Of a stretch of 38,379 nucleotides of DNA, positions 459-38,215 are shown one piece after another. The translations under genes were made by a program, and so were the position numbers. Source of the DNA: a virus. The stretch's first letter is position 1. The number at the start of each line of letters is the position of its first letter. The stretch spans positions 1 to 38,379 of the IMG/VR virus record IMGVR_UViG_3300043399_000021; one strand, 5' to 3'. The notes under the pieces are model-generated. The model did no database searches. It was given only the letters and a program-made list of their open reading frames with translations, and was not told the DNA's origin.

Positions 459-464
459 ATTATA
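459..464 (-). promoter_or_regulatory. -10 box TATAAT before the 108-aa gene
   Basis: The minus strand reads AGTTATAAT, overlapping the helicase stop region. The -14 G of an extended -10 is kept but the -15 T is not. Only 5 bases separate the hexamer from the ATG at 453, and no Shine-Dalgarno is present. This is the weakest member of the promoter set in the window. Confidence 0.35.
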
Positions 465-465
465 A

Positions 466-1686
466 CTAGTTATCTTCGAAATCCTTGTATCGATACATAC
501 CCTTGTCAAAATCAGTCTCAATAAAGAACTCGCCCATAAAGCCGTTTCGGTTCTTACGGAAGACACACTCAATAATGTCTGAGTTTGCTCCACGACCAAG
601 TGCAAGCACCCAGTCAGCATCGTAGGCAATCTGGCGTGACCAAGCAGTTTGTCCCAATGTAGGAACAGTATCCAGCTTGTTAACATCGTCTGGTGTGGCT
701 GACGAGATAGCAATGATTGGAATCTCCTCGCTAATAGCCATAAGCTTTAGTTCACGAGATAGGTTCTTCATACGTACCGTCTCGTTATCAGCCTTCTGGT
801 TAGGCGACATAAGTTGCAGGTAGTCTACAATAATGAAGTCAGGCTTGTACTGATCGATCTTACCTCGCAGAACTGATGGCGTAACTTCTCCACCAGAATC
901 GTTTGAGATGATGTGGAACTCTGGCTTGCCCTGCAGATTCTTCTGATGCCAAGACTTGAGCATGTCTAGCTCAACTTGACCAGAAGATAGCTTGCGGTGA
1001 GACCAAAGACCATCGCCCATGATTGTAAAAACACGGTTACGAACCTCCGTCTCTGACATCTCAAGACTGATAACCATAGGCGACTTGCCCTGTCTCCACG
1101 CCTGTACTGCAAAGTAAAGCGAGAGCCACGACTTACCAATACCTGGATAGGCAAGGAATACGCCTAGCTGTCCTGGCATGATACCTGCAGGAAGATAGTT
1201 GTCGAATCCTGGAAGACCAGTCTTGATACCTGTGACACCAAGCTCTGCTTGCTCTTGCACCTGACGATAGTATGCAAGTGCCGAATCAATGTCTGTCACA
1301 TCAATATCACGAATAGCAGAGGTATTCTTCTTAAGCTCTGAAGTCTTTGTAATAAGGTCTTCTAGTGCTTCTAGACCTTGCCCAGACTGAACGTCCGCAG
1401 CAGCATTGCGAATAATGTCCTTAAGGTTATCATTAAGGTATTCTGCCTGTAGTTCATCAAGGTGATGCTTGGTCGCACCTACCCCAGCGACTGGCTCAAA
1501 GTCACGAAACTTCTCAATGACAAGACTGGTGGGCGGAACTGTGCCATTGTTCTCAAAATAGTTGCGGATAAAGTTCCAGACATCATTATGTGTTCGTAGA
1601 AGGTTGTCTACGTTTGCCTGAAGCAGTACGTGTACCTGCTTGTCCTCTAGGACTGCGGAGATTACCTTTGATTCGATGTTACTCAT
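466..1686 (-). CDS. Replicative DNA helicase, DnaB-like
   Basis: The 406-residue product is a RecA-fold hexameric helicase that would unwind DNA ahead of the phage fork. A small N-terminal helical domain (about residues 1-115) and linker precede the ATPase core (about 145-406). Walker A is AYPGIGKS at 179-186 and Walker B is IIVDYLQL at about 285-292. An arginine-finger-like segment FRKNRNG lies at 376-382. VISLEMSETEVRNR at about 205-218 matches the DnaB H1a region. It is shorter than typical bacterial DnaB (about 450-470 residues), mostly because of a reduced N-terminus, as is common for phage helicases. The ATG overlaps the end of the preceding gene by 8 bases, with AAGGA upstream, implying translational coupling. 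The primase start lies just downstream, so helicase and primase are co-transcribed. Confidence 0.93.
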   Translation of the reverse strand: MSNIESKVISAVLEDKQVHVLLQANVDNLLRTHNDVWNFIRNYFENNGTVPPTSLVIEKFRDFEPVAGVGATKHHLDELQAEYLNDNLKDIIRNAAADVQSGQGLEALEDLITKTSELKKNTSAIRDIDVTDIDSALAYYRQVQEQAELGVTGIKTGLPGFDNYLPAGIMPGQLGVFLAYPGIGKSWLSLYFAVQAWRQGKSPMVISLEMSETEVRNRVFTIMGDGLWSHRKLSSGQVELDMLKSWHQKNLQGKPEFHIISNDSGGEVTPSVLRGKIDQYKPDFIIVDYLQLMSPNQKADNETVRMKNLSRELKLMAISEEIPIIAISSATPDDVNKLDTVPTLGQTAWSRQIAYDADWVLALGRGANSDIIECVFRKNRNGFMGEFFIETDFDKGMYRYKDFEDN

Positions 1687-1987
1687 TCAGCCATTCCTTT
1701 GCTTTCTTTCTACGAGCCGCTCGTTCCTCAAGATCCTGTCGGAGTTGGTCACGAGCAATGATTAGTGATTCTGCATAATTTGCGAAGTATTTCCATGTTG
1801 GCGTTTCTGCAACGTCAAAGTAGTACTCAAGTAGGTCGTAGCAGTATGGCAAGCCGTATGACTCAATGAGTGCATCGGCTGACCATTGCTCAACGTTAAG
1901 GTTTAGTAGTGGCTTCTTCTCATGCTTTACGACATAAAGCTTGGAGTACCTTGAGAGCAAAGCCATACGGTCTTTGCGGTCTGCCAT
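1679..1987 (-). CDS. Hypothetical protein, 102 aa, directly upstream of helicase
   Basis: This small, mostly helical, charged protein begins MADRKDRMALLSRYSKLY and ends in a strongly basic-acidic helix with EERAARRKKAKEW. A hydrophobic/aromatic centre (LPYCYDLLEYYFDV, then TWKYFANYAESL) suggests a compact helical fold. There is no catalytic motif, membrane span or signal peptide. Its start overlaps the stop of the 69-aa gene (TAATG), and its own stop overlaps the helicase start by 8 bases, so the three are translated as one coupled unit. Tight coupling to a DnaB-like helicase makes a helicase loader or replisome accessory role attractive. That is inference from position alone, and I see no DnaC-like ATPase motif. 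Confidence 0.75.
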   Translation of the reverse strand: MADRKDRMALLSRYSKLYVVKHEKKPLLNLNVEQWSADALIESYGLPYCYDLLEYYFDVAETPTWKYFANYAESLIIARDQLRQDLEERAARRKKAKEWLNE

Positions 1988-2196
1988 TACTTACTGTCGA
2001 TCTCTGACGAAGCTTCACGTACCTTTTCTGCAAGCTTCTCTTCTACGAATGCGTAGACTCGCTCAAAGGCTTCGTTTGCACTTTCACCGTCACGGCGTGT
2101 ATCGACTACCCCAAGGTCTACACGCAAGGACTGAAAGTTGCCCAGATTAAGCGTATACCCAAGAGTAACGCTGATTTTTGTGTTATCGTTTTCCAT
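1987..2196 (-). CDS. Hypothetical protein, 69 aa
   Basis: The product is short and acidic, beginning MENDNTKISVTLGYTLNLG. The first half alternates hydrophobic residues as a beta-hairpin would (KISVTLGYTLNL, then LRVDLGVV). The second half is a single amphipathic helix with ANEAFERVYAFVEEKLAEKVREA. A strong Shine-Dalgarno (AAGGAGA, 3 bases before the ATG) supports this start. The stop codon overlaps the next start (TAATG). I do not recognise a function. The strand-then-helix layout and the position at the head of the helicase group suggest a small replication or DNA-binding accessory protein, with low certainty. Confidence 0.72.
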   Translation of the reverse strand: MENDNTKISVTLGYTLNLGNFQSLRVDLGVVDTRRDGESANEAFERVYAFVEEKLAEKVREASSEIDSK

Positions 2197-2211
2197 GTCT
2201 CTCCTTATGGA

Positions 2212-2748
2212 CTAAATAGATTCTGACCAAACAGGCACGAATCGCCCATCGTCAGTTCTCGTATATGTCAGTATACCATCTCCCATACGTCTTGTCAACT
2301 CTTGTCTGGAAGGTGTTATATCGTTTGTAATGAGTCGATCTTTTCTTGGTCGTCCCATATGGTAGGTAGCAAGTATATCACGAATATCGTGTACCTGCGA
2401 TTCTGAGTAGTAGCACCTGACTTGCCATGCTCTTTCTCCACCTTTTTGTGCTCCCATTGGTTCTGGGATAATGCCACGTTTCATGAGGCTTGGCATATAT
2501 TTTCTGTGACGATTAACAAGTTTAGCTACCTCGCCAACTGTATAGGCTCGTTCACGATTTTTCTTAAAGTCACCGACGAGGCAACTTTCTATTTGGTCTT
2601 TTGTAATGTTGTACAAAGACATAATTCCATTAGATTTGCTCAAGTGGTGGATTCTAACCAGATCTCCATTAAGAAACCAGATCTTTTTGCTACCAGGAAT
2701 TACTGGGGCTGAGTTATAGGCTTCACGATCAAAACCTGGTGATGGCAT
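2212..2748 (-). CDS. Helix-turn-helix DNA-binding protein, MerR/excisionase-like
   Basis: The 178-residue product has a winged-helix-turn-helix-like core at about residues 68-125: AYTVGEVAKLVNRHRKYM is the MerR/excisionase pattern in which GEVAKL forms the first helix and the following helix reads DNA. A GRPRKDR stretch at 132-138 resembles an AT-hook core and would contact the minor groove. The N-terminal 65 residues (WFLNGDLVRIHHLSKSNG...) are unassigned and may sense a ligand or bind a partner. The gene starts by TAATG overlap with a baseplate gene and is followed 15 bases later by the replication-side small genes. It therefore sits at the border between structural and replication modules, where a transcription regulator or replication-initiation protein would make sense. 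Its target is unknown. Confidence 0.8.
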   Translation of the reverse strand: MPSPGFDREAYNSAPVIPGSKKIWFLNGDLVRIHHLSKSNGIMSLYNITKDQIESCLVGDFKKNRERAYTVGEVAKLVNRHRKYMPSLMKRGIIPEPMGAQKGGERAWQVRCYYSESQVHDIRDILATYHMGRPRKDRLITNDITPSRQELTRRMGDGILTYTRTDDGRFVPVWSESI

Positions 2749-3201: not shown

Positions 3202-3207
3202 ATTATA
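3202..3207 (-). promoter_or_regulatory. -10 box TATAAT before the 148-aa gene (leaderless candidate)
   Basis: The minus strand reads GTGTATAAT, overlapping the stop codon of the upstream gene. Seven bases separate the hexamer from the ATG at 3194, so a transcript starting 7-8 bases downstream of the box would begin at the ATG. No Shine-Dalgarno is present. The TG is one base too close for a classical extended -10. Confidence 0.45.
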
Positions 3208-17672: not shown

Positions 17673-17987
17673 TTATGCTCCAATGCCAATGGGGTTTCCC
17701 ATTGTAATACCTGAAGCTGCCTCTACAACCTTGTAAACGGTTGGAAGGTCAATGTTGTCTTCTAGAGCCTTGAGGTCTTCTGCGAGCTCAGGCTTGTACT
17801 GACGCATTGCAATCTGGACACACTGCATGAGTACATCCATTGACTTTGCGTTGTCGTCTGCTACTGTGGCGACCTCTTCGAACTTCTTCATGAAGTCACG
17901 GAGTAAAGAGATCTTGAGAGGGCGAACTGCGATTGTACTTCCATCTAGAAGTGTTAGTTCTGTTGCCTCATTAACTGTTGTTGCCAT
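17673..17987 (-). CDS. Tail assembly chaperone, short form (G-like)
   Basis: The 104-residue product is a paralogue of the N-terminal half of the neighbouring 241-residue gene. Both have LLDG near residue 15, PLKI with a downstream LR-x-FM, a Cys-x3-AM-x-QY-x-P stretch and the identical string DLPTVYK near residue 85. Tail assembly chaperones coat the tape measure protein while the tube polymerises around it, and are normally made as a short form and a frameshifted long form. Here the short form is its own gene, with an extended -10 (TGGTATACT) and a strong Shine-Dalgarno (AAGGAGGA) in the 44-base gap upstream. It ends 21 bases before the tape measure start. Identification is by this paralogy and by position. 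Confidence 0.85.
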   Translation of the reverse strand: MATTVNEATELTLLDGSTIAVRPLKISLLRDFMKKFEEVATVADDNAKSMDVLMQCVQIAMRQYKPELAEDLKALEDNIDLPTVYKVVEAASGITMGNPIGIGA

Positions 17988-18015: not shown

Positions 18016-18024
18016 AGTATACCA
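18016..18024 (-). promoter_or_regulatory. Extended -10 promoter TGGTATACT before short tail chaperone
   Basis: The minus strand reads AATATGGTATACTT, a 14-base string repeated exactly at 27129-27142. It lies 29 bases before the ATG at 17987, leaving a short leader that includes AAGGAGGA. No -35 match is visible. Confidence 0.55.
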
Positions 18025-18763: not shown

Positions 18764-18772
18764 ATTATAGCA
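18764..18772 (-). promoter_or_regulatory. Extended -10 promoter TGCTATAAT, leaderless start for long tail chaperone
   Basis: An exact TGnTATAAT lies between the hairpin terminator (18780-18805) and the chaperone start. The predicted +1 is the A of the ATG at 18757. The -35 region would overlap the terminator stem and shows no TTGACA-like sequence. Confidence 0.62.
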
Positions 18773-18779
18773 AAGACAA

Positions 18780-18805
18780 AGCTACCCAGCCGAAACTGGG
18801 TAGCT
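18780..18805 (-). terminator. Rho-independent terminator after major tail protein gene
   Basis: On the minus strand a 10-base stem AGCTACCCAG with perfect complement CTGGGTAGCT encloses the loop TTTCGG and is followed by TTGTCTTTG. It lies 24 bases after the major tail stop. The stem is perfectly paired and GC-rich relative to its surroundings. Confidence 0.88.
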
Positions 18806-18829
18806 CTGAATATTTAGTTATACAGCTTA

Positions 18830-19483
18830 TTAGGAAGCTGCTGGGATTGTACGGTCAACGATCTTTCCGTATGAAGCGGAGTCGTTGGGGAGAAGTCTGA
18901 ATGAAACTTCGTACATTGTGGGTTCGTCACGCTTCGCTGAAACTGTAACACTCTCAATTGAGAGAGCACGGTATGCAACGTAAATGCGTTCGATCTGCTC
19001 TGATGCAGCACAGTCACCTGTACCTGGACCAATAGCGACGAGACCACGCTCAACAGGACATTCACCGATGTCACCAGCTGACATGTTTAGGACCTTGTGT
19101 CCTGCCCACATCCCTGATCCATCTGCATCAATGTCGCTATCCTGACCAGCGAGTGCGAAGAGAAGGTTCTCTAGAGTTGCCTCAGCGAATGCAGTGTTAA
19201 GGTTAACCTGCATACCCTGCTTGTAAAGCTTAGCAACGTCAAGAACCTGGTCTACCTGGACCTCACCGAAGTCAGGCTGGAACTGGATCTCAAGACCGTT
19301 CATTGTGTAACCAACGTTACGGAAATCGCTGTCGTCATCAAGGGTGTCCTTGTATGAAGTACCCTCAACGAGTGCAGGAAGATCTACATCGTCCAATTGC
19401 TCGGCTCCACCTACTGGTTCGTATGTGAATAGTGCTGCAGCACCAACGATAATGTTGTTGCTTGTACCACGTGTATATGCCAT
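18830..19483 (-). CDS. Major tail (tube) protein, 217 aa
   Basis: The 217-residue product (MAYTRGTSNNIIVGAAALFT) is soluble, acidic and beta-rich, with the N-terminal GAAALFTYEP strand seen in many siphovirus tube proteins. Residues 60-135 (FQPDFGEVQVDQVLDVAKLY...) and the final strands (MYEVSFRLLPND) complete the fold. It would polymerise into stacked hexamer rings forming the tail tube. Three observations support the call: it lies between the neck genes and the tail chaperones, it has its own promoter (TGATATACT) with a leader of about 47 bases and an AGAGGTGA Shine-Dalgarno, and it ends at a strong terminator. It therefore looks like a monocistronic, highly expressed gene. Confidence 0.92.
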   Translation of the reverse strand: MAYTRGTSNNIIVGAAALFTYEPVGGAEQLDDVDLPALVEGTSYKDTLDDDSDFRNVGYTMNGLEIQFQPDFGEVQVDQVLDVAKLYKQGMQVNLNTAFAEATLENLLFALAGQDSDIDADGSGMWAGHKVLNMSAGDIGECPVERGLVAIGPGTGDCAASEQIERIYVAYRALSIESVTVSAKRDEPTMYEVSFRLLPNDSASYGKIVDRTIPAAS

Positions 19484-19536: not shown

Positions 19537-19545
19537 AGTATATCA
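19537..19545 (-). promoter_or_regulatory. Extended -10 promoter TGATATACT for major tail protein
   Basis: TGATATACT lies 53 bases before the ATG at 19483. The predicted start near 19530 leaves a leader of about 47 bases with small imperfect hairpins and an AGAGGTGA ribosome site. Such a leader could stabilise an abundant mRNA. Confidence 0.55.
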
Positions 19546-21261: not shown

Positions 21262-22148
21262 TACAGTACTCCTAGTCTTGTGATTGATTTTGCATATTTA
21301 GACAAAATCTTATCAACAAGAATGTTTCCTGTTCCTTCGAATACTCGCTTATCGAACTGTAGTCTGTACTGGTCTGTACTGTAAGAAGCAATGTACTTCT
21401 TGTAGTACTCAAGCTTGCCGCATGAAATATCATCAATAAGTAGCTTTGTAGCTCTTACAATATCTGATGGAACTGCTGTGTATCCTGCCTCAAGAATGAA
21501 TCTGTAGTCGAATGTCTTTGGGAATACTCCAGAGTAATAAAATGTTGTGTCTAGCAGATCTGAGGCACCTGCTGGAAGAACGTTTGGAGCACCTTCCATT
21601 CTATTTGTAGTGCCAGTATATGAGTATGTGATTGCTGTCTTGTCTTTTGTAATCTCATACTCTCTGTCTGTTACCAAAACGTTATTTTCATAAGCAGAAA
21701 GAATCTTCTTAGCATTTACCCATAGTGGAATATAGTCAGCACCTAGACCTGTGACCTCGTAGTTAATTTTCTTGTAGTAGAATCCCTGTGGAATAACTGA
21801 ATCAATTACTGCACGTGCAAGTTCTTCCTGCAGAGTTGCCTCTGCGATTTCAGAAGCGGTTGTGCCAAGCGTGTTTGGGTCTACATATGGTCTACGAAGC
21901 TCGTATGTTTCATCACTGATAATATCATCTGATGCATCTGTAATTACTACTCTGTAGTCTGAGTCGTATGTTCCAGGGAGAGTGATTGTCCACTCATACC
22001 CTGCATTATCTGTAATGGTTTGTGTGGTAACACTAAGATCCGCCATATCTGTAATGGTAGCAGTGAACTCCTCATTAGATGTGTATGATGCTGGAATTGT
22101 GAAACTAACTTCCACATCAGCATATGGCGATAATCTTAGTATTTCCAT
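21261..22148 (-). CDS. Head-tail connector adaptor with N-terminal Ig-like domain, 295 aa
   Basis: The N-terminal 90 residues (MEILRLSPYADVEVSFTIPA..., then YEWTITLPGTYDSDYRVVI) form a beta-sandwich-like unit of the immunoglobulin or bacterial Ig-like type. After RRPYVDPNTLG the rest is a helical adaptor: EIAEATLQEELARAVIDSVI at about 103-122 begins the helix bundle, and ATKLLIDDISCGKLEYYKKY near 230-255 ends it. This two-part layout is one I know from actinophage connectors. It would bind the portal underside and form a ring, perhaps displaying the Ig-like domains outward. The gene starts by TAATG overlap with the acidic protein gene. Confidence 0.8.
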   Translation of the reverse strand: MEILRLSPYADVEVSFTIPASYTSNEEFTATITDMADLSVTTQTITDNAGYEWTITLPGTYDSDYRVVITDASDDIISDETYELRRPYVDPNTLGTTASEIAEATLQEELARAVIDSVIPQGFYYKKINYEVTGLGADYIPLWVNAKKILSAYENNVLVTDREYEITKDKTAITYSYTGTTNRMEGAPNVLPAGASDLLDTTFYYSGVFPKTFDYRFILEAGYTAVPSDIVRATKLLIDDISCGKLEYYKKYIASYSTDQYRLQFDKRVFEGTGNILVDKILSKYAKSITRLGVL

Positions 22149-22621
22149 TATAGTCCGTATTCCTCCGCAACTTCTTTTGGAGTTGCTGTGCGAACGTGAC
22201 TTCTAGTGAGCCACTTATCCGCTAATTCTTTTGTAACGATGTTGTAGCCCTTATTGACCTTTCCAACACCTTCCCAGCTTACATTCTTTGTGGAGAAGAT
22301 TGCAACCTTTTCTTCAGTTATTACTGGCGTTGGCTCAAGCTTTGCCTTTGCCTTTTCTAGCTTGTCTACTTTGACTGAGCCAATTGCTCCACCATTTGTT
22401 GCACCAAGAGCACCTGTCTTTTTACCACCCTTAGCGGTTGTGCGAGATGAACCAATAACGTTATTTTCGTCTGTTTCTGGCATACCCTTGATTTTTGTTT
22501 TAATATCTGCAGCAATCTCTTTTGCAAGATCTTCTACTGTTTCTGCGACTTCCTCTACGGCTTCTGAGACTGATTCTACAATCTCTTCGACTAGAGTATC
22601 ATTGTTTGTTTCTTCTGACAT
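22148..22621 (-). CDS. Small acidic head-associated protein, 157 aa
   Basis: The N-terminal 45 residues are a strongly acidic amphipathic helix (LVEEIVESVSEAVEEVAETV). A Gly/Lys/Ser-rich linker (about 55-85) follows, then a compact C-terminal domain (EEKVAIFSTKNVSWEGVGKV, then NIVTKELADKWLTRSHVR). The C-terminal part resembles a short domain found after capsid genes in actinophages, often with unknown role. It begins a new transcription unit: its start has CAGGAGG 7 bases upstream and an extended -10 just beyond the capsid terminator. Candidate roles are a capsid decoration, a head fibre base or a connector partner. No enzyme motif is visible. Confidence 0.7.
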   Translation of the reverse strand: MSEETNNDTLVEEIVESVSEAVEEVAETVEDLAKEIAADIKTKIKGMPETDENNVIGSSRTTAKGGKKTGALGATNGGAIGSVKVDKLEKAKAKLEPTPVITEEKVAIFSTKNVSWEGVGKVNKGYNIVTKELADKWLTRSHVRTATPKEVAEEYGL

Positions 22622-22640: not shown

Positions 22641-22649
22641 ATTATATCA
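22641..22649 (-). promoter_or_regulatory. Extended -10 promoter TGATATAAT after capsid terminator
   Basis: An exact TGnTATAAT lies 11 bases downstream of the capsid terminator stem and 19 bases before the ATG at 22621. The predicted start near 22634 leaves a 12-13 base leader with CAGGAGG. No -35 is visible, since that region is the terminator itself. Confidence 0.6.
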
Positions 22650-25081: not shown

Positions 25082-25090
25082 ACTAAATTA

Positions 25091-25096
25091 ATTATA
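25091..25096 (-). promoter_or_regulatory. -10 box TATAAT before protease gene
   Basis: The minus strand reads GGGTATATAAT. The hexamer is canonical but TG is not at the extended position. Nine bases separate it from the ATG at 25081, with no Shine-Dalgarno, which would leave a leader of about 3 bases. A 20-base palindrome lies just upstream, over the -35 region. Confidence 0.5.
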
Positions 25097-25111
25097 TACC
25101 CATATTTATAA

Positions 25112-25131
25112 ATGTTACAATGTTGTAACAT
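25112..25131. repeat. 20-base palindrome in the protease promoter region (operator candidate)
   Basis: On the minus strand, arms ATGTTACAA and TTGTAACAT flank a CA centre, giving perfect 9-base arms. The centre lies about 37 bases before the predicted transcript start, over the -35 region, which suits a dimeric regulator. As RNA it would be an AU-rich 8-pair hairpin with no U tract, so it is a poor terminator. Confidence 0.6.
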
Positions 25132-25149
25132 ATCTACTAGTATATCACA

Positions 25150-26739
25150 TTATTGTGATGCTGGACCCTCACCCTGAGCATTTCTGCCAGAAGTTGCGGC
25201 AGGTCCGTCTGATTGTGCTGCAGCTCTTTCTGCATCACGCTGTCGATTATCTGCCATATTTGCACGAGCATCAGTTGCTTGGCGAGAAGTCATTTGGAAT
25301 GGCTCGTCACCATCTGCTCTCTGTGGAAGCCCAAGAGCTTCACGTGCTTCGTTAGGAACCATAATCTGGGTCTTAACATAACGCTCAAGAATTTGTGACT
25401 GTGCAATTTCGTCTGTGAGTGTAAGTTCGTTAAACTTGAGTTCTAGGATATCTGTCTTCTCACGGACAATCTTATTGATAATCTTCTCAAGATTACGTTG
25501 TGCTGGTCTTGCTACCTGCTCCTTAAAGGTACGGTCTTGTGCAAGTGCCGCAGCAATATTAGATGCATCTGATCCACCAAGCTTTGATAGTGGGACCTGG
25601 TGGCTAATGAGAATGTCGTCACGGTTCTGCTTGCGGTAGTCTCTGAATGAGGCTTCCTGCACTCCGCTCTCAATTGCTTCCATCTTAAACTCAACCTTGT
25701 TAGTGTCTGAGTCTCCAGGAAGTGGAATATAGAGTGTACGGTGATTCTGCCCTTTAAGGCTAGTCTGCAAGAATCGGAACATGCGGTCTTCTGATTCTTC
25801 TGAAAGCTTTGCACCCTTTGTTGTAATAATGTAACGAGGTACAGCCTTGTTTGCAAAATAGTCAATGTTGTATTGTGAGGCTAACTGGTCTCCGTGTAGT
25901 GATCCGATTGACGACATAATGTCAGGGATTCCGTAGTATGTGTTTAATGGCGAATATGCCTTGAGGTGAAGAATCTCGTTTGGACGAGGATCATCTGTAA
26001 TTGGGTTTGGGTTGGTTGCACCAAAGTTGCGGAAGTACACAACCTTGTGACCAATAATCTGAACATAGCCATCCTTTAGACGACGTACACGCATTGTTGT
26101 TGATGGGATATGACCAAGATATCCGATCTCTCCTGTGATAGTACGACCAACCTCAAGATATGCGTTTCCTGTGGCTTCGTAGTCAGTCCAAAACTTCATC
26201 ATTGTGGCTGTAAAAGAGTCGTCGTCATTGAGTCGCTCTAGCCAGTCACGCATCTCTACCTTTGCTCGTTCGATACGCTTACGAGCTTTTTCTGTAGCAG
26301 ACTCATTCATACTTGATTCTAGTTGCATTAGTGTACGCTTTGATACCTCAAAGTCGTATCCAAGACCAACGATGTTTTCCACCTTTGCGTCAATAGCAGC
26401 GTGGTTAGCGAATGATGTGTCGTAGTAGTTTGCAAGTTCGTAAAGGTTCCATGGAGGAGTGATTACATCAAAGAGACCGTAGCCGTTTCTGAATACTGTT
26501 CCTGGATTAATCTCTTTTGACTTTGCCCCACCAATACCGCTCTTTTCTGCAAGAGAGGTTGTGGTGTATGCAGGTGTCATTTCATTCTTTGCAATTCTAT
26601 TTGCACGACGCTTAAAGTTTGCGTTAATTCCGCTTAGACCCTTAATGTCGTTCCATGACTTTATGAATGGATCGCTATCTTTAAATTCATCTACGATCTC
26701 TTCTGCTTTGTCAACTTTTGCGACAATTCTTTCTTCCAT
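25150..26739 (-). CDS. Portal protein, 529 aa
   Basis: The product has the features of the PBSX/HK97-like portal superfamily. WNLYELANYYDTSFANHAAI at about 96-115 is the conserved early helix-turn, and HLKAYSPLNTYYGIPDIMSS near 245-264 and LPLSKLGG-like VPLSKLGGSDASNIAAALAQ near 392-411 mark the core and stem region. The terminal 60 residues are charged and low-complexity (QRDAERAAAQSDGPAATSGR). Twelve copies would form the DNA channel at one capsid vertex and bind terminase during packaging. The start overlaps the previous gene by TAATG, with GGAG about 10 bases upstream. The protease follows 68 bases downstream after a promoter region. No terminase gene is adjacent, which is unusual. Confidence 0.93.
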   Translation of the reverse strand: MEERIVAKVDKAEEIVDEFKDSDPFIKSWNDIKGLSGINANFKRRANRIAKNEMTPAYTTTSLAEKSGIGGAKSKEINPGTVFRNGYGLFDVITPPWNLYELANYYDTSFANHAAIDAKVENIVGLGYDFEVSKRTLMQLESSMNESATEKARKRIERAKVEMRDWLERLNDDDSFTATMMKFWTDYEATGNAYLEVGRTITGEIGYLGHIPSTTMRVRRLKDGYVQIIGHKVVYFRNFGATNPNPITDDPRPNEILHLKAYSPLNTYYGIPDIMSSIGSLHGDQLASQYNIDYFANKAVPRYIITTKGAKLSEESEDRMFRFLQTSLKGQNHRTLYIPLPGDSDTNKVEFKMEAIESGVQEASFRDYRKQNRDDILISHQVPLSKLGGSDASNIAAALAQDRTFKEQVARPAQRNLEKIINKIVREKTDILELKFNELTLTDEIAQSQILERYVKTQIMVPNEAREALGLPQRADGDEPFQMTSRQATDARANMADNRQRDAERAAAQSDGPAATSGRNAQGEGPASQ

Positions 26740-27122
26740 TATTCATCATCTCCATAAACTTCTAGAGTCTTCTTTGCAGCGATGACGGCACCAAGGTCAT
26801 TCATGTTAGGAATGAATCCCTGCTTCATGCGGTCAACCTGTTCTGAGTGTGTCTCGTCTGAAATCTGACGAGTGTTTGGATAAAAGATAGCCTGACCATC
26901 TCCCTCTCCATAATACTTTGCAGCATCAATTAGCTTCTGAATACGATCTGTGTCGTTTTTGTATGATTCGATTGACAGAACGCTACCGTTTCCATCTGTA
27001 AAAGGCTTGCCATTTGACTTAACCCAGATATACGTTCCGAAATCTGAGAACTCTTCTGAAATAATTTGTACTTTGGCTTTGCTTAAAGCTTGCTCAATTG
27101 CATCTGGTTTCTCTTGTTCCAT
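26739..27122 (-). CDS. Hypothetical protein before portal, 127 aa
   Basis: I do not recognise a function. The product is acidic and mixed alpha/beta: an N-terminal helix (DAIEQALSKAKVQIISEEF), a small beta part (FGTYIWVKSNGKPF), a helix (RIQKLIDAAKYYGEGDG) and a C-terminal helix (DLGAVIAAKKTLEVYGDDE). No motif of a small terminase subunit is visible, though its place before the portal would fit one. I chose the ATG at 27122. A GTG two codons upstream at 27128 lies directly against the -10 box and would not be on a transcript made from the promoter at 27130-27138. No Shine-Dalgarno is present, so it is probably leaderless. Its stop overlaps the portal start. Confidence 0.7.
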   Translation of the reverse strand: MEQEKPDAIEQALSKAKVQIISEEFSDFGTYIWVKSNGKPFTDGNGSVLSIESYKNDTDRIQKLIDAAKYYGEGDGQAIFYPNTRQISDETHSEQVDRMKQGFIPNMNDLGAVIAAKKTLEVYGDDE

Positions 27123-27129
27123 AACCACA

Positions 27130-27138
27130 AGTATACCA
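27130..27138 (-). promoter_or_regulatory. Extended -10 promoter TGGTATACT, leaderless start before portal unit
   Basis: The hexamer TATACT ends 7 bases before the ATG at 27122. The surrounding 14 bases AATATGGTATACTT recur at 18015-18028 before the short tail chaperone. This promoter would start transcription of the head module right after the fibre block. Confidence 0.58.
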
Positions 27139-27140: not shown

Positions 27141-30119
27141 TTAAACTGGTATGTAAGTATTTCTGGTCAACTCAATGTCAGTTTTTACAGAATATTCGTA
27201 ATCTTGTAACGAAAATACGATTCCAGACACATTTCCGTCAATACTATAGCTATCGCCAATAATTGTGTTAGAGCCAACGTATGTGCTATAAACAATTGCT
27301 GGATTAAGTGTTGGGTCAATATCGCCACTAGTTGAGATAATCTGTCCCCATGTGTCAGGATCTGTTCCTGGATCAATGCCGTCCTGTTGCCAGTAGTTCC
27401 AGGTAACGTCATTTAATGGACCATCTACAGAAGACCATGGATTAAAAACGACTTTTGCAGTAATTTCTGATTGTGGAACTGTGTATAGAACAACGTTGTT
27501 AAATAGTACTGGACCATATAGATCTACAGTTCCTTCGATACCGTCAAAACTAATGGGGTCTTGGAATCTAAGACCAACAAAGAACCATTCACGAACGTCA
27601 ATTGATGGGGTCGCATCAAGCTCACCATTCAGATATACAGAAACATTTGTTGTTGCAGTATCCACGCCATTAATAACTTCTTTGATTACAATGTTTGCAT
27701 CTGTTGTTGATTGTGGGTCAAGGTACAGTCTATATTTCTTGTTTGACTTACCAGTAATCTCAAATATCTTAATGTCTGCAGAAGAGGCTGAAAGCAAATC
27801 TTCATACCTCATTGCAAATTGCATTGTTGACACCTGATAGAATCCTGCAAGTCCTTCGTTGACAAAAAGTCTAAGGAATCTATTTGAGAAGTCCTCTCCA
27901 ACTAATCTGATACCAGTATGCTTAGTCATATACAAGTACTGGCTTTTATGTTTTCCAAGAATTACTGGGTTAATTGTTTTATAGTCAAACTTTCCATCCA
28001 CAATTTTTACTGGATAAATGTCTTTACCAAACTTTGTGCCAATTGCATTAGTTGGGATGTTCTGGTTTGTATTTATGTCAAGCTCGTTATCTTCCATAAT
28101 TCTTGATGCAATTTCTAGTGAGCGGATCTTGACTGGTTTTTTAAGAATACCATCAACAGTAAACTCTGTATGAACAACTAATGCGTAGTCCAAGAAATCT
28201 AAACTTTCTGTGTTTGCTGGTCTGTAGATAATAGTGTCGTTAATTACCTCATACCTTTTTGTAAGATCTGTCGGAGCTGAGACAACATTGTATGCTGGGG
28301 CTTTTACTGTATTTGCTGTAGTTCCTAATGAAAGAGCAATGTCATTTGCCCCCTCGTCAATTCTCTGAAAACTAACGTATGTTTTTACAATCTCTGCTGA
28401 TGTGTCAATGTAGTCTACAGTATCATCAACTACCGTTTCTGCTTCTGGGTAATTAATATTAAACTGAAGGTAATCTAGTGTTTTTTCTCCAGAAATATTT
28501 CTTGATGAAAGAGAAGACAGAGAGATAATATCTTCCCAGTATCCATTCACTGCAATATCAATGTCAAAGAATCCAAGTCTATTCTCAGAAAATAGCGTAT
28601 AGCTTGCTGTGTGATTTTTTACTGATGAAGATAGTGCAAACGAGCCATCTGAATTGATTGCTGTGCTAAAGTCACGGTTTAGTCGCTGATAGTTATTGTC
28701 GTCATAGAGCCCAATCTTATAGATGCTACCTGTAAATGTTTTTGTAAAATCTGCATACCCTCCGACATATACCTTTAGGTTACGTCTATCGGAGAATAGA
28801 TTATAAAACACTGTTCCGAATGTGCTAGAAGATATTGCATCTGCTAAGTCTACACCAACCACAAATTCAGTACCTGCTGTTGGAATGCTTACTGTTTTTA
28901 GAACTGATGTTGGTGTGTAGTTTGTTCTATACACAATGCTTGTGTTTGTAGCAACAATCTCAAATGCGTCTTTGGTTAGTTGATTTTCTAGCTTAAATAG
29001 AATCTGTTCTTCTGCACCTACCCCTGGATTTGTTGCATATTTAAATACACCATAAAAACCACGAATTGGAGATAGCGTAAAATCGAAGTTGTCAAAGACC
29101 AAGTAACCAGTTTCATCTGTATTTCTAATCTTCATAAAAGCACCAGAACTATCCTGATAGGCTTTCCACTGATCTACCGTCTTATTTTTAATCGAAATTG
29201 TTGGCAGAGAATACGCAGGGACGGATAGCTTGTTTGCGTCTACCTCAAGATTATTAATATATCCGTTTTCCCATCTAAAGATATCTGGGTATACCCTATT
29301 CTTTCCAAATCTTGAGAATGAATAGTCAATAGCTGCTGGGGTACTTGAGTATGATGTAAATACTGTATCTAGTGCCTGAGTACCCTGACCATAAACAAAT
29401 CGTCTCTTTGCAATAACAGATGAAACCTGATATGCATAAATAGCAATACAGTCAACCAGAATTGGACCAACATCATCATAACAATAGAATCCAAGCCAGT
29501 CTTGGCTATTTCCACTTGCAGTATCGTCAGCAAGATCGATAGTTGACATATCAATATTCATACCAACCACTTGTTCGCTATTAATCATCATAGTAGCGAA
29601 GTTGTTGGCTATCCCAACGTGAATAAGCATTGGTCGTCCCCACTCACCAACAAAGTGTGAAGAATAGTTATTGCCAATTTTAAGACCAATAAATGATCCA
29701 TCGACATAGATTCCGTCTGTAGATCCAATTGGACCAAAGATGCGTTTTGGGCTTGTGCTCCTATTATTAATGTTTAGCCACATCTCAACTGTGAGATTAA
29801 AGTTTCTTCCATACTCAATAAGGAATCCATTTGCAGGAATCAGAAGGGATGGTTTTGGAGAGTTGCTATATAGCACCGTTGAGTTATATGCACCATATAC
29901 CATTGGCACACCATAGTTTTTAGCATCTGTTCCAGGGTTAACATAATACCCACTTGTAGTAAGTTCGTCATGACCAGCTGCTGGTGCAACAGTAAGGCTA
30001 CCTAGACTGCCAACATTAGAAACTGTGGAGGTAGCAGAAATATCATCATCTAAAGCCCATAAAGCAATGGGATGCTCTTTAGCAATTTGATAGGCATAAG
30101 CATTAGAACGACTGGTCAT
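27141..30119 (-). CDS. LamG-like minor tail protein, 992 aa
   Basis: This 992-residue protein contains several concanavalin/LamG-like jelly-roll units, recognisable from repeated strand patterns: FNLTVEMWLNINNRS with GDIYVDGSF-like IYVDGSFIGLKIG (about 110-160), a second unit ending TFTGSIYKIGLYDD (about 475-490), and a third near 770-900 containing VSVYLNGELDATPSIDVREW. Such domains bind glycans or fold as lectins, so receptor contact on the cell surface is likely. No signal or enzyme motif is seen. AGGAGATA before the ATG fixes the start, and an extended -10 (TGCTAAAAT) lies in the gap upstream. It separates the adhesin block from the portal unit. Confidence 0.82.
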   Translation of the reverse strand: MTSRSNAYAYQIAKEHPIALWALDDDISATSTVSNVGSLGSLTVAPAAGHDELTTSGYYVNPGTDAKNYGVPMVYGAYNSTVLYSNSPKPSLLIPANGFLIEYGRNFNLTVEMWLNINNRSTSPKRIFGPIGSTDGIYVDGSFIGLKIGNNYSSHFVGEWGRPMLIHVGIANNFATMMINSEQVVGMNIDMSTIDLADDTASGNSQDWLGFYCYDDVGPILVDCIAIYAYQVSSVIAKRRFVYGQGTQALDTVFTSYSSTPAAIDYSFSRFGKNRVYPDIFRWENGYINNLEVDANKLSVPAYSLPTISIKNKTVDQWKAYQDSSGAFMKIRNTDETGYLVFDNFDFTLSPIRGFYGVFKYATNPGVGAEEQILFKLENQLTKDAFEIVATNTSIVYRTNYTPTSVLKTVSIPTAGTEFVVGVDLADAISSSTFGTVFYNLFSDRRNLKVYVGGYADFTKTFTGSIYKIGLYDDNNYQRLNRDFSTAINSDGSFALSSSVKNHTASYTLFSENRLGFFDIDIAVNGYWEDIISLSSLSSRNISGEKTLDYLQFNINYPEAETVVDDTVDYIDTSAEIVKTYVSFQRIDEGANDIALSLGTTANTVKAPAYNVVSAPTDLTKRYEVINDTIIYRPANTESLDFLDYALVVHTEFTVDGILKKPVKIRSLEIASRIMEDNELDINTNQNIPTNAIGTKFGKDIYPVKIVDGKFDYKTINPVILGKHKSQYLYMTKHTGIRLVGEDFSNRFLRLFVNEGLAGFYQVSTMQFAMRYEDLLSASSADIKIFEITGKSNKKYRLYLDPQSTTDANIVIKEVINGVDTATTNVSVYLNGELDATPSIDVREWFFVGLRFQDPISFDGIEGTVDLYGPVLFNNVVLYTVPQSEITAKVVFNPWSSVDGPLNDVTWNYWQQDGIDPGTDPDTWGQIISTSGDIDPTLNPAIVYSTYVGSNTIIGDSYSIDGNVSGIVFSLQDYEYSVKTDIELTRNTYIPV

Positions 30120-30134
30120 ATTATCTCCTAGTCT

Positions 30135-30143
30135 ATTTTAGCA
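30135..30143 (-). promoter_or_regulatory. Extended -10 promoter TGCTAAAAT before LamG tail gene
   Basis: TG-C-TAAAAT lies in the 30-base gap between two tail genes, about 16 bases before the ATG at 30119, with a short leader containing AGGAGATA. The hexamer is one base off TATAAT, so it is a weaker member of the set. Confidence 0.42.
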
Positions 30144-30149
30144 TAGAGA

Positions 30150-31376
30150 CTAGGCGTAATATTCTATAATTACAATTCCAGGGTTTCCTGCTCCACCAGA
30201 AGCCTTGTTACTAGAAATAGACATTGCTCCAAATGCACCAGCACCATATGCTCCAGAGTTTGCCGAAGATCCAGATCTAGAAGAAGTTGCTATGGTGGCT
30301 TGTGCATCACCAATCGGATACCCTGGTGCTGCACCTGGTTTTGATGCATATAGGTCTGTAGAGGTTTCGAATGATACGATTCCACTTGCACCACCCAAAA
30401 TTGAGAAATCTCCATATTCTACAGCTCCTGTACCTGTATTTGGAAGTGTTCCACTCTCAAAATCTGGTGCGACAAGTGCCGTGCTTTCTGACAAACTTCC
30501 ATTGCCACCAGAAGCTATACATAGGTAATACGTTAACGATGCTGGTGGTGTTGGTGTTTCTGTAGAAGCCTGATTCCCAGTTCCGATCAAGTCATCAGTT
30601 TCGAACCTTCTTTCTGCAATATTCCTACTAATAACAACACCAAACGATTCATTTATGCTTGTATTGGTAAAACCAGATATTCCAACAACGTCTCCAATTT
30701 GTGGAAGGTATTCTATTGGTGCTTCAGGTATCAAAACATATGTTCCAGTATTGCCACCGCTCATAGAGCCACTCTGAATTATATTTGGAATAGTAAAAGA
30801 TACGCTACTTCTTCCGCCATCGCCACCAGATGTTGGACTATTTGTTCCAGCAGTTCCACCTGCACCAACCGTAATTGTTGGTGTATTGTAAATAGTATTC
30901 GTTAATACAAAGCTTTCTGAATAGTTGCCGCCAGAACCTCCAGCAGATGCTGCACCAATAGCACATCCACCAGAACCCCCTCCACCACCAATACATTTTA
31001 TTCTAATTGCTCTATAGTTTGCAGATGATGGCATTGTGGTTGACGAAGTATAGGCTACTGTTTCTATTAGCCTATAGCCATTTGACGATACTAGTCCAAG
31101 ATCGGATGCTGTTTTGTCTTGCCAATATCCTCCTGTAGAGTTATAAGACAGTATGTCATTGTTTGACAAAGAAGAGAGGGTTATTCCAGAAAGCTGGCTT
31201 AGCGTATATTTTCCAAGAACATAATCAAGTGAGTTCCAGGCTGTGCTACCAGTTCCAATTTTTACCTTGCCAGTATTTGTCTCAAATCCAAGTTCACCTT
31301 CTGCAAGTGTTGGGTTTGTTGAGGTCCAGTTTGCAGCGGTATCTCGTCTAAATGCAATAAGAGATTGTCTTGCCAT
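30150..31376 (-). CDS. Mtd-like N-terminus plus Gly-rich adhesin, 408 aa
   Basis: The N-terminal 55 residues (FRRDTAANWTSTNPTLAEGE, then TGKVKIGTGSTAWNSLDYV) match the Mtd-type N-terminal domain that attaches many phage adhesins to the tail. A linker (YTLSQLSG...) leads to a Gly-rich receptor-binding region starting IKCIGGGGGSGG near residue 130, with further runs such as GGDGGRSSVSF, and it ends GNPGIVIIEYYA. Gly-rich tips of this type resemble polyglycine-sandwich adhesins. It is a clear paralogue of the gene at 31577-32548. GAGGAG is upstream of its ATG, which overlaps the previous stop (TAATG). It would determine host recognition. The receptor is unknown. Confidence 0.85.
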   Translation of the reverse strand: MARQSLIAFRRDTAANWTSTNPTLAEGELGFETNTGKVKIGTGSTAWNSLDYVLGKYTLSQLSGITLSSLSNNDILSYNSTGGYWQDKTASDLGLVSSNGYRLIETVAYTSSTTMPSSANYRAIRIKCIGGGGGSGGCAIGAASAGGSGGNYSESFVLTNTIYNTPTITVGAGGTAGTNSPTSGGDGGRSSVSFTIPNIIQSGSMSGGNTGTYVLIPEAPIEYLPQIGDVVGISGFTNTSINESFGVVISRNIAERRFETDDLIGTGNQASTETPTPPASLTYYLCIASGGNGSLSESTALVAPDFESGTLPNTGTGAVEYGDFSILGGASGIVSFETSTDLYASKPGAAPGYPIGDAQATIATSSRSGSSANSGAYGAGAFGAMSISSNKASGGAGNPGIVIIEYYA

Positions 31377-31576: not shown

Positions 31577-32548
31577 CTATACATAAACGTCAACAATGAC
31601 GATTCCAATCGCACCAGCTGATCCAGATCTTGCAGTTGTTTGTGACTGAGTATTTGTTCCACCAGTTCCTCCACAACCTTTATTTGTTGATGATACTGAG
31701 CCACCAGATGCTCCAGTTGTGACTGCTGATGGTGGCTCTGCATTTGGGAACATTGCTGTTCCGCCACCAACATTTGTGTATGTATCTGTAGCATTAAGTT
31801 GATTTCGTACTCCAGACGCTTCTCCAAGAATAATTATATCTCCAACATCACCAGTAGTGTTTGGACTTGTTCCTGAATCAAAGTCTGGAACGGTAGTCGC
31901 CACTCCACCACCGCCACCGTTTCCTCCAACAGCAACAACAAGTGTCCCAAAACTGCTATTACCACCATCGGTTCCAGCGTTTCCACCTGCTGTACCACCT
32001 GCACCACCTGCACCTACAGTCACTGTTTCTGTTGTGCCTAATGCTGATGCAAGCAAAAACTTTTCTGCATAGTTTGCTCCAGAGCCACCTGCACCATTTG
32101 CAACTTGTGACGCTCCAGTAGTAGCGGCTCCACCGCCGCCACCGCCACCGCCGATACAGCGAACTCTTACAGCTCTAATTCCAGAATAGTTTGCCTTAGT
32201 AAAAGTACCACTGGCTGTAAAATAAACTGTTTGCAAATAACTGTATCCAACAGTTGTGGCAAGACCTGCCTCCGTAGGAGTCTTATTTATCCATTTGCTT
32301 GTTGCTGTGTCGTATGCTAAAACTTCGTTGTTTGCTGGAGTTCCATCGATCACAACGTCAGAGAGGCTGTCAATTGGAAAACTTTCTACAATATATGGTA
32401 GTGATGTCCAGGCGGTAGAGCCAGTTCCGATCTTAAACTTACCAGTATTTGTCTCTACCCCAATTTCTCCAGCACTAAGTGTTGGATTAGTAGATGTCCA
32501 GTTTGATGATGTATCTCGTCTAAGCTTAATTGTTGACTGTGCTGGCAT
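31577..32548 (-). CDS. Mtd-like N-terminus plus Gly-rich adhesin, 323 aa (paralogue)
   Basis: Residues about 7-52 (LRRDTSSNWTSTNPTLSAGE, then TGKFKIGTGSTAWTSLPYI) are nearly the same as in the 408-aa adhesin and match the Mtd-type attachment domain. A fibre-like linker NEVLAYDTATSKWINKT near residue 75 is shared with the 433-aa fibre upstream. The tip is Gly-rich, starting VRCIGGGGGGGG near residue 130, with GGAGGTAGGNAGTDGGNSS, and it ends GAIGIVIVDVYV. It would bind a host receptor. The start overlaps the previous stop (TAATG) and has GGAGG 9 bases upstream. Two paralogous adhesins side by side suggest alternative or mixed host recognition. Confidence 0.85.
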   Translation of the reverse strand: MPAQSTIKLRRDTSSNWTSTNPTLSAGEIGVETNTGKFKIGTGSTAWTSLPYIVESFPIDSLSDVVIDGTPANNEVLAYDTATSKWINKTPTEAGLATTVGYSYLQTVYFTASGTFTKANYSGIRAVRVRCIGGGGGGGGAATTGASQVANGAGGSGANYAEKFLLASALGTTETVTVGAGGAGGTAGGNAGTDGGNSSFGTLVVAVGGNGGGGGVATTVPDFDSGTSPNTTGDVGDIIILGEASGVRNQLNATDTYTNVGGGTAMFPNAEPPSAVTTGASGGSVSSTNKGCGGTGGTNTQSQTTARSGSAGAIGIVIVDVYV

Positions 32549-33849
32549 TATGCACTACCTCCATCAATTGTTCCAGTAAACGATGTTCCAGCAATTGGTC
32601 CATTAACTGTAAAGTTTGCTGCAACCGTTTGTCCAACGATAACGTCTCCTCCATCTGGATTTATTAGCAGTGTGGCTGCTGTTCCATTATTAAATCTACT
32701 AATCTCATTTTGATCAATTCTTAAATTAATTCCGTCACTTGGACCAATCTGAAATGCATGTGTTGTAGAAGAGCTTGTTGCATCATCGGTTGCCGTAAGT
32801 CTAAGTGTGGGAGACTCAATATTGCCAGTAAATGTGGCACCTGAAAGTGCAGCTAGTCCTGCCTCTGCTGCTGTTTGGTTAATCCAAAGACCAGATGTTT
32901 CGTCATAGGCAAGGACTTCATTGTTTGCTAGTGTTTCCTCAATAGTCACACCGTGAAGTTCTGTAAGTTCGTATCCGTTTTGGATTTTAACAATTACTTC
33001 ACCAGCACTAGCGTGTGCTTTAACTACATACCCCAAAAATACTACGTGTGCTGGTTCAGAAGGTGCTGTTTGAGTAAATTGTCCTGCAGTCTGTGAAAGA
33101 TAGATTGCCCCACCCTCAGTAAGCCCATCAGTATTTACTCCACGGAGAACACCTTCTGTTACAACAAAGCCTTCTGCACCATCTAGAATTTGCTCTGCTA
33201 CAAAACCAAATGTCTTGCTTGATGTGGTTTCTGTATCTGCATCAGCAAGTGCAACTGTGGGCATTTGCCCTTGAGCACCATTAATATATACAACAGATCC
33301 TTTAGATAGTGTGGAACCTGTAGAATTCTTTACAGTAATAAGAGATTCTTGTCCAAGACCAATTGTTACGTTTGCATTTAAAACTGCTTTTGGAATACCG
33401 TCTCCAGAATCCCAAAAAATTGTTCCTGCATCTGTCGATGGTGAAGTTGGGGTGGTATCAAAAGTAATGGCATTTATAGCAGTTAGATCTGCGTCTACTG
33501 CAATAGTAATAGTGTCTGATGTAGAATCACCAGTAATTCCAATGTTTACACCATCGGCAAAAGTAATTGTATCTGTGGCTGAGTCTGCTACAGGGTTTGT
33601 TCCAGATGGGACGGCAAAAGTAGTAAACGAGTTACCTCCACCACCTGCACCAGTAGCATCTGTATCGTTAACCCAGTTTGTGCCATTCCATTTAAGGACT
33701 TGTCCAGTGGCAACGTCAGTAATAACAACGTCTCCAAGAGCGTTTATAGACGAAGCGGTAGTAAGAACGTCATTACCGTTAACAGTTGCATTTGCACCCT
33801 CAACAATAAGACCGTTCTTTACCCTAAAGTCTTTGTTAGTAGTCGCCAA
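32548..33849 (-). CDS. Tail fibre protein, 433 aa, TTG start
   Basis: The N-terminus (MATTNKDFRVKNGLIVEGA) is the phage fibre attachment motif also present in the next-upstream fibre. A middle domain with AVLNANVTIGLGQESLITVK and GSTLSKGSVVYING is a module widespread in phage fibres, continuing through GAIYLSQTAGQFTQT to IVKIQNGYELTELHG. A WINQTAAEAGLA linker precedes the C-terminal shaft (LRLTATDDATSSSTTHAFQI) and the end. The start is TTG at 33849, preceded by AAGGTGAT. The nearby ATG is out of frame. An extended -10 (TGGTATAAT) lies upstream, flanked by an inverted repeat. It is probably a trimer mounted on the baseplate. Confidence 0.83.
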   Translation of the reverse strand: MATTNKDFRVKNGLIVEGANATVNGNDVLTTASSINALGDVVITDVATGQVLKWNGTNWVNDTDATGAGGGGNSFTTFAVPSGTNPVADSATDTITFADGVNIGITGDSTSDTITIAVDADLTAINAITFDTTPTSPSTDAGTIFWDSGDGIPKAVLNANVTIGLGQESLITVKNSTGSTLSKGSVVYINGAQGQMPTVALADADTETTSSKTFGFVAEQILDGAEGFVVTEGVLRGVNTDGLTEGGAIYLSQTAGQFTQTAPSEPAHVVFLGYVVKAHASAGEVIVKIQNGYELTELHGVTIEETLANNEVLAYDETSGLWINQTAAEAGLAALSGATFTGNIESPTLRLTATDDATSSSTTHAFQIGPSDGINLRIDQNEISRFNNGTAATLLINPDGGDVIVGQTVAANFTVNGPIAGTSFTGTIDGGSA

Positions 33850-33888
33850 GTATCATCACCTTAGTAAATTATACCAGATAATGATACT
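33849..33888. repeat. Inverted repeat flanking the 433-aa fibre promoter and ribosome site
   Basis: The 8-base arms AGTATCAT (33849-33856) and ATGATACT (33881-33888) enclose 24 bases that hold the extended -10 and the Shine-Dalgarno. The start-side arm covers the bases between the Shine-Dalgarno and the TTG. A read-through mRNA could fold the arms together. A transcript from the internal promoter lacks the upstream arm. Confidence 0.4.
33868..33876 (-). promoter_or_regulatory. Extended -10 promoter TGGTATAAT before 433-aa fibre
   Basis: This is an exact TGnTATAAT in a 53-base gap, with predicted start near 33861 and a leader of about 12 bases carrying AAGGTGAT. There is no -35. Confidence 0.58.
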
Positions 33889-35746: not shown

Positions 35747-35755
35747 ATTATATCA
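35747..35755 (-). promoter_or_regulatory. Extended -10 promoter TGATATAAT, leaderless start for 148-aa fibre-like gene
   Basis: An exact TGnTATAAT in the 19-base gap ends 6 bases before the ATG at 35740, which would itself be +1. No Shine-Dalgarno is present. This is the cleanest leaderless example in the window. Confidence 0.65.
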
Positions 35756-36443: not shown

Positions 36444-36452
36444 ATTATATCA
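36444..36452 (-). promoter_or_regulatory. Extended -10 promoter TGATATAAT, leaderless start for BppU-like gene
   Basis: An exact TGnTATAAT ends 7 bases before the ATG at 36436 in a 22-base gap. The first transcribed base would be at or one base before the ATG. No Shine-Dalgarno is present. Confidence 0.62.
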
Positions 36453-36458
36453 TAACTA

Positions 36459-37646: not shown

Positions 37647-37649
37647 TTA

Positions 37650-38189
37650 TTACCACATCCAAATGTCGCCAACTGTCATTCCAGTTGTTGGCTGAGTCTG
37701 TCCTGTAAAAATTTTATTTGTTGGGGTAACTGCAGAATAGTCTCCACCAGAAGTAGCTTTATAGTGAACAACTGCTGTAGCATTCGATGCAGTTCCTGTA
37801 AGATTACCAGAGAATGTTCCTGATACTGTTCCAGTGAATGTTGGGTTTGCTATTGGAGACTTTAGATCAAGTTGTGCCTGAATAGCAGAAGTAACATCCG
37901 ACAAATACCCCAGTTTTGTTGTTGTAATATCTGAAGAGACAATTTTAATTTGACCTGATATTGTTGAGGAAATAAGGACTCTATCGGTAGCAATTGTTCC
38001 AATTTTATCGCTAATTGTTTTTAGGTGAGAATAGATTGAGTCTGCGGCTGCTGTTGCTGCGGTAGCAGGGGATCCAGCATTGTTTCCGTAGTGATAGAAT
38101 CTAAAAGCATTCTGAATATTGGCAACATCAGTAAGATCTGGAATGGTTGTATTAAAGAGTGTTCCAGACTCTCCGATTTGTATTGGCAT
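37650..38189 (-). CDS. Short tail fibre protein, 179 aa
   Basis: The product begins MPIQIGESGTLFNTTIPDLT and has a helical region (about 65-85), followed by the fibre-module string KLGYLSDVTSAIQAQLDLKS, then SPIANPTFTGTVSGTFSGNL. That pattern (LDxKAPxxxPxFTGT) occurs in many phage fibres as a coiled coil leading into a beta-helical shaft. The C-terminus (TGQTQPTTGMTVGDIWMW) resembles a small beta end-cap. An extended -10 (TGTTATAAT) and AGGAG lie upstream, and it is coupled by a 3-base gap to the fibronectin gene. It would be one of several peripheral fibres. Confidence 0.8.
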   Translation of the reverse strand: MPIQIGESGTLFNTTIPDLTDVANIQNAFRFYHYGNNAGSPATAATAAADSIYSHLKTISDKIGTIATDRVLISSTISGQIKIVSSDITTTKLGYLSDVTSAIQAQLDLKSPIANPTFTGTVSGTFSGNLTGTASNATAVVHYKATSGGDYSAVTPTNKIFTGQTQPTTGMTVGDIWMW

Positions 38190-38206
38190 AATAACTCCTT
38201 AGATAA

Positions 38207-38215
38207 ATTATAACA
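38207..38215 (-). promoter_or_regulatory. Extended -10 promoter TGTTATAAT before short fibre gene
   Basis: An exact TGnTATAAT in a 31-base gap, 17 bases before the ATG at 38189. The leader, about 11 bases, contains AAGGAG. There is no -35, and CGCTTT sits where one would be. Confidence 0.58.

Follow-up and report, generated by a model that had tools for sequence, protein, structure and literature searches.

The window analysed here is the whole 38,379-nucleotide stretch of IMG/VR virus record IMGVR_UViG_3300043399_000021, a 38 kb piece of a tailed-phage genome that encodes portal, head maturation protease, major capsid, major tail, tape measure and tail proteins, a DnaB-like helicase and a fragment of a primase, and that carries a family of TATAAT-like -10 boxes, most of them in the small gaps between its genes. 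From the sequence, position and conservation of these boxes, from the lack of a Shine-Dalgarno (SD) sequence at one class of them and from synonymous constraint on two that lie inside a gene, we infer, with a probability of roughly 0.85, that they are promoters for the host primary sigma factor (sigma-A/HrdB type), used genome-wide in two conserved modes, leaderless and SD-led. Most boxes are extended -10 elements (TGnTATAAT or TGnTATACT) that would be read without a -35 contact, and at a minority, such as the promoter of the protease gene, a -35-like element would take the place of the TG. In the first mode the box stands 5–7 nt before an ATG, and the messenger RNA (mRNA) would be leaderless, its first base being the A of the AUG, with a small related class at 9 nt that would give a 3-nt leader; in the second mode the box lies at least 15 nt upstream and is usually followed by an SD. 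The system would be genome-wide and not specific to late genes, and would include two promoters written into the gene of a helix-turn-helix (HTH) protein. Leaderless mRNAs appear to serve the head and tail genes of a large uncultured phage family, with the mode set per gene.

The nearest cultured relatives of this phage are Stanwilliamsviridae of Streptomyces: its capsid protein is 43% identical to that of LukeCage, the order portal-protease-capsid-tail-helicase-primase is the same, and in gene order and capsid homology the window fragment agrees with the family. Close relatives are plentiful in IMG/VR, where a scan with the capsid gave at least 586 confirmed matches, of which 80 (1.02 Mb in total) were kept as the set of relatives. 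Statistics on the distance from box to ATG were drawn from 240 related viral loci with 288 non-redundant TGnTATA[AC]T sites. Gene starts throughout are inferred ones, and the window and most relatives are fragments.

Predicted leaderless and Shine-Dalgarno-led modes

The distance between box and ATG, measured to the nearest ATG that opens an open reading frame (ORF) of at least 50–60 codons, was bimodal across the 288 sites: 114 boxes stand at 5–7 nt and 96 at 15–40 nt, with 23 at 9 nt and only 6 at 10–14 nt. At single-nucleotide resolution, 75 of the phage boxes lie at 6 nt and 32 at 7 nt. With a start expected about 7 nt below a -10 box, mRNAs of the 5–7 nt class should begin on the A of the AUG, and about half of the boxes appear to give leaderless mRNAs. 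A 5-nt SD was absent from the 5–7 nt class (0/62) and present in 67/119 of the led class when non-redundant sites were compared (Fisher p 7e-17). Led promoters prefer a purine at the predicted +1 (nt 7), and the 9-nt class has an A at position 7 in 96% of cases, where its transcripts would carry a leader of 3 nt.

The mode, leaderless or SD-led, is fixed gene by gene across relatives. At the long tail assembly chaperone gene the box lies 6 nt before the ATG in 49/49 relatives without a 5-nt SD, and a strong hairpin stands upstream of this promoter in 49/49 (median minimum free energy -25 kcal/mol); the 49/49 figure was read from the sequence listing because automatic classing per gene, which accepts the nearest box at any distance, 0 included, mislabels a few starts. 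The gene before the portal gene shows leaderless spacing in 47/47 relatives, likewise without a 5-nt SD, the box lies 5–7 nt from the start of gene 35740 in 76/80, and gene 36436 has its box at leaderless spacing in 59/64. In contrast, gene 22621 is SD-led in 15/15 relatives, and a 5-nt SD precedes the start of the major tail protein gene in 56/56 and that of the short chaperone gene in 39/49. The rule of a box followed by 6–7 nt and an ATG also corrects gene starts, placing that of the pre-portal gene at 27122 (likely) instead of the GTG at 27128, and that of the long chaperone at 18757 instead of 18760.

Given that the gaps between genes are tiny (633 bases in total) and would press boxes against starts, we considered whether the 5–7 nt spacing simply results from the compression of the genome, with the real mRNAs starting elsewhere. 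This is very unlikely, as compression fails to explain the empty zone at 10–14 nt, the loss of the SD in the close class only and a mode that is fixed per gene, and the candidate host described below has the same peak at 6–7 nt.

Strand bias, synonymous constraint and -35 elements

All thirteen minus-strand boxes listed in the initial annotation are present in the window. The minus strand has six copies of the exact TGnTATAAT and the plus strand none, as against a mean of 0.82 and a maximum of 4 in 300 dinucleotide shuffles, in line with the earlier estimate of about one per strand by chance. All 12 copies of TGnTATA[AC]T are likewise on the minus strand, where shuffling gave a mean of 1.56 and at most 6. 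Of these 12, 10 lie wholly within the 633 intergenic bases, which make up 1.6% of the window (binomial p ~1e-16). A TG one base 5' of a TATAAT-like hexamer, which defines an extended -10, is found at 10 of the 13 boxes and, in addition, at two intragenic boxes and at an intergenic one (25139-25147) that was missing from the earlier list. Six of the 13 stand 5–7 nt before an ATG; neither these predicted leaderless starts nor the embedded promoters had been recognised in the initial annotation. Among the 80 relatives, the coding strand carries 188 copies of TGnTATAAT and the opposite strand 15; of the 188, 178 lie at most 60 nt upstream of an ORF start. We give practically no weight to the view that the boxes are matches thrown up by chance and composition in AT-rich gaps: it could account for about one exact match per 38 kb strand, but not for the bias of strand and position in the window and its relatives, for spacing that is kept while the flanks diverge, or for synonymous constraint under two intragenic boxes.

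These two boxes lie in the gene at 2212-2748, whose product is a MerR-like HTH protein (so named in Streptomyces relatives). When its codons were compared across the 80 relatives, of which 46 are non-redundant and the mean pairwise identity is 76%, CGT GAT ATA CTn (TGATATACT), GGT ATA CTn (TGGTATACT) and GAG TTG ACA (TTGACA) were near-invariant, whereas neighbouring codons vary freely. The gene has 168 degenerate codons, and of the 10 most frozen among them seven coincide with the -35 or -10 elements (hypergeometric p 6e-8). The full -35/extended -10 pattern is present in most loci with the HTH gene; the pair was not found in the HTH ortholog of Annadreamy. Both boxes are predicted promoters ahead of the helicase and primase genes. 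The earlier impression, from a by-eye scan, that no boxes occur inside genes is wrong for the TGnTATACT sites at 2270-2278 and 2372-2380; these two hits inside a gene, of the kind that the initial annotation would have counted against its reading, themselves resemble selected promoters. These compact genomes can thus hold regulatory signals inside coding sequence as well, where scans of intergenic regions miss them.

The initial annotation had seen no -35 shared among the boxes. This stands for the TGn boxes: no -35 enrichment was found at those with leaderless spacing (0.15 versus 0.15 in controls), and their upstream columns are nearly flat. It does not stand for the box at 25091, which has TTGTAA 18 nt upstream, or for that at 36444, with TTTACA 16 nt upstream. 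More generally, among boxes at most 9 nt from the ATG, at least four matches to a -35 were seen in 41% of those without TG versus 13% of shifted controls, and in 15% of those with TG versus 15% of controls. At the protease promoter, an A/T-rich -35-like region is present in 37 non-redundant relatives. The -35 contact is therefore probably dispensable at TGn boxes, to judge by these base frequencies. In the window, the -35 region of the protease promoter coincides with a perfect 20-bp dyad (ATGTTACAACATTGTAACAT, 25112-25131), and related dyads occur in several, not all, relatives.

Host sigma factor and phage-encoded factors

To relate the boxes to a host, we used the capsid in a scan of genome contigs, in which one contig with a capsid relative was found binned in an actinobacterial metagenome-assembled genome (MAG); no further capsid match was found in 200 genomes of the family of this MAG. 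In 240 kb of the MAG (G+C 44.6%), the candidate host, TAnnnT lies 6–7 nt before the start at 41/221 genes (31 at 6 nt, 10 at 7 nt), and in 20 genomes of its family at 42/266 genes (31 at 6 nt, 11 at 7 nt). Freshwater Nanopelagicales would suit the size and G+C of the MAG. The phage boxes share this host-like spacing of 6–7 nt, which points to an unmodified host sigma-A, and on the simplest account the phage relies on host sigma-A and leaderless translation, with stronger boxes. MAG contig C172, which carries TTGACA..TGGTATACT, was considered as a second contig of the same phage and dropped, as it had no match to the HTH protein.

Several points weigh against host sigma-A promoters in two modes. 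The candidate host comes from a single phage-like contig binned in a single MAG. The TG extension is rare at the leaderless boxes of the host (at most 3/41 in the MAG, 1/42 in its family relatives), which indicates that the phage boxes are not simple copies of host promoters. Lastly, distances measured to the nearest ATG could favour short values by chance, although such a bias is unlikely because the zone at 10–14 nt is nearly empty and the tables of orthologs are consistent.

The initial annotation had proposed that transcription proceeds in numerous small units behind extended -10 promoters, which position, strand bias and conservation support, and had further proposed that these are late units, perhaps served by a phage activator or a modified sigma, which the spread of the boxes over the genome and their host-like spacing do not. 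In three long relatives (88–95 kb), boxes extend over the whole contig on both strands, as seen in G003 and G004, in leaderless and led form and also far from structural genes; the embedded pair ahead of helicase and primase likewise shows no restriction to late genes. Late promoters that depend on an activator or sigma factor encoded by the phage, or on a modified sigma, are thus unlikely, even though TGn boxes without a -35 would suit them. A search for Sigma70_r2 found none in 14 relatives, one for Sigma70_r4 gave only two matches in 8 relatives, both below the cut-off, and a search for a T7-type polymerase had no match, but neither had its control, so that it does not count either way. No shared upstream activator site was found at the TGn boxes, which stand at the same distance from the start codon as the boxes of host genes.

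A WhiB-like gene in 3 of 8 long relatives (G001, G002 and G004) and in Annadreamy (gene 161) leaves room for a step that modifies sigma. The WhiB family is confined to Actinobacteria (PMC6282962) and their phages, so that its presence also speaks for an actinobacterial host, and WhiB1, WhiB3 and WhiB7 bind region 4 of sigma-A (PMC6282962; WhiB binding to sigma-A also in PMC3905903). In T4, AsiA blocks the contact between region 4 and the -35 but spares extended -10 promoters (PMC2988021), and this AsiA-resistant class of sigma-70 promoters has the TGn before the -10 and the freedom from a -35 in common with the phage boxes. By analogy, the phage may sort its genes by promoter type, such that a WhiB-like protein of its own shuts off host and early promoters that depend on a -35 (the embedded TTGACA-17-TATACT ahead of the replication genes would be one) and spares the leaderless extended -10 promoters, which lack it; the protein would then be a WhiB-based counterpart of T4 AsiA. 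We hold this to be rather improbable, and the protein is a candidate for a role comparable to that of AsiA.

Host-type promoters in two modes resemble known systems in part. More than 20% of genes are leaderless (TA-led) in Actinobacteria (PMC3160421), and Deinococcus-Thermus likewise has such genes (Deinococcus, PMC12340547). As in the phage, their -10 box lies about 6–7 nt from the start codon without an SD; however, the phage boxes are consensus TATAAT or TATACT with a TG, whereas those of the candidate host are weak TAnnnT mostly without it. For Cluster O mycobacteriophages such as Corndog, a -35/-10 scan predicted three leaderless SigA promoters, of which two point away from each other within a single intergenic region and the third serves a leftward gene (PMC4351075); the boxes described here differ in being mainly without a -35, genome-wide, placed at head and tail genes and conserved in many relatives. 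In phages, the familiar examples of leaderless mRNAs are those of repressors such as lambda cI. In the open-access literature (most subscription journals lay outside the search), we found no report of leaderless transcripts of structural genes in phages, the predicted Cluster O cases being the only ones, and no phage family described as having leaderless starts throughout its head and tail operons, with each gene keeping to one mode.

LukeCage and Annadreamy, which share the gene order of the window, have TATAAT followed by 6 or 7 nt and an ATG at several genes, among them the Annadreamy ortholog of the pre-portal gene (7 nt). In Annadreamy, 11 TAnnnT boxes lie at distance 6 among 216 plus-strand starts, as against about 3–4 at a typical other distance. 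Both phages differ from the window in that exact extended -10 boxes are scarce in the parts covered here and that the tail chaperone is SD-led and split over two genes. Since the signature is common to cultured Streptomyces relatives, it is directly testable.

Individual sites and neighbouring features

The coordinates of the boxes, and of the genes and elements associated with them, are given in Table 1.

Table 1. Boxes, associated elements and genes of the window, and a WhiB-like gene of a long relative. Promoter assignments are predictions.
Feature	Position	Strand	Assignment
TGTTATAAT	38207..38215	-	SD-led promoter of gene 37650..38189; 17 nt to ATG 38189; SD taaggag
TGATATAAT	36444..36452	-	Predicted leaderless; 7 nt to ATG 36436; TTTACA 16 nt upstream
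TGATATAAT	35747..35755	-	Predicted leaderless; 6 nt to ATG 35740
TGGTATAAT	33868..33876	-	SD-led promoter of gene 32548..33849; TTG start; SD aaggtgat; like arrangement at G004:88884
TGCTAAAAT	30135..30143	-	Short-leader promoter of gene 27141..30119
TGGTATACT	27130..27138	-	Predicted leaderless; 7 nt to ATG 27122 of gene upstream of portal
TGATATACT	25139..25147	-	7 nt before 13-codon ORF, upstream of protease promoter
ATGTTACAACATTGTAACAT dyad with TTGTAA (25115-25120)	25112..25131	-	-35-like hexamer 18 nt upstream of TATAAT
TATAAT without TG	25091..25096	-	Protease promoter; 9 nt to ATG 25081; predicted 3-nt leader AGU-AUG
TGATATAAT	22641..22649	-	SD-led promoter of gene 22148..22621; SD aggagg; GC-rich hairpin before box
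TGATATACT	19537..19545	-	SD-led promoter of major tail protein gene; 53-nt spacer
Intrinsic terminator stem-loop, 14 pairs	18777..18808	-	Directly upstream of 18764 promoter
TGCTATAAT	18764..18772	-	Predicted leaderless; 6 nt to ATG 18757 (second ATG) of long tail assembly chaperone
TGGTATACT	18016..18024	-	SD-led promoter of short tail assembly chaperone paralog 17673..17987
TATAAT without TG	3202..3207	-	Predicted leaderless; 7 nt to ATG 3194; in several relatives TGGTATAAT 9 nt from ATG
Embedded TGATATACT	2372..2380	-	Within coding sequence of HTH gene 2212..2748; frozen at synonymous sites
Embedded TTGACA (-35)	2293..2298	-	17 nt upstream of TATACT 2270-2275; frozen at synonymous sites
Embedded TGGTATACT (extended -10)	2270..2278	-	Predicted promoter for genes 2196, 1987, DnaB-like helicase and primase
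TATAAT without TG	459..464	-	5 nt to ATG 453; likely leaderless (window sequence only)
Portal gene	25150-26739
Head maturation protease gene	23816-25081
Major capsid protein gene	22702-23790
Major tail protein gene	18830..19483
DnaB-like helicase gene	466..1686
WhiB-like gene	G004:C1:54998-55171 (L100 14998-15171)

An inverted repeat, CCTAGTCT...AGACTAGG (30125-30155), surrounds the TGCTAAAAT box and may be an operator or an overlap of terminator and promoter. The 13-codon ORF that follows the box at 25139 (stretch 25090-25131) terminates at the box of the protease promoter and is not conserved among the relatives viewed.

The two tail assembly chaperone genes, 18032-18757 (long, with an extra C-terminal part) and 17673-17987 (short), are adjacent paralogs, 38% identical over 96 amino acids, each with its own promoter. 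When matched by tblastn to Streptomyces relatives, the chaperone region fell into two pieces on successive genes, which recalls a frameshifted G/GT pair, and the duplication may replace frameshifting in the phage of the window. When positions 1-25000 of the window were searched by megablast, no match was returned other than a stretch of the tape measure gene (17059-17113), which over 50–60 bp is 92–96% identical at the DNA level to 29 Streptomyces phages and encodes about KNTQWAGRQLMVGFTIP.

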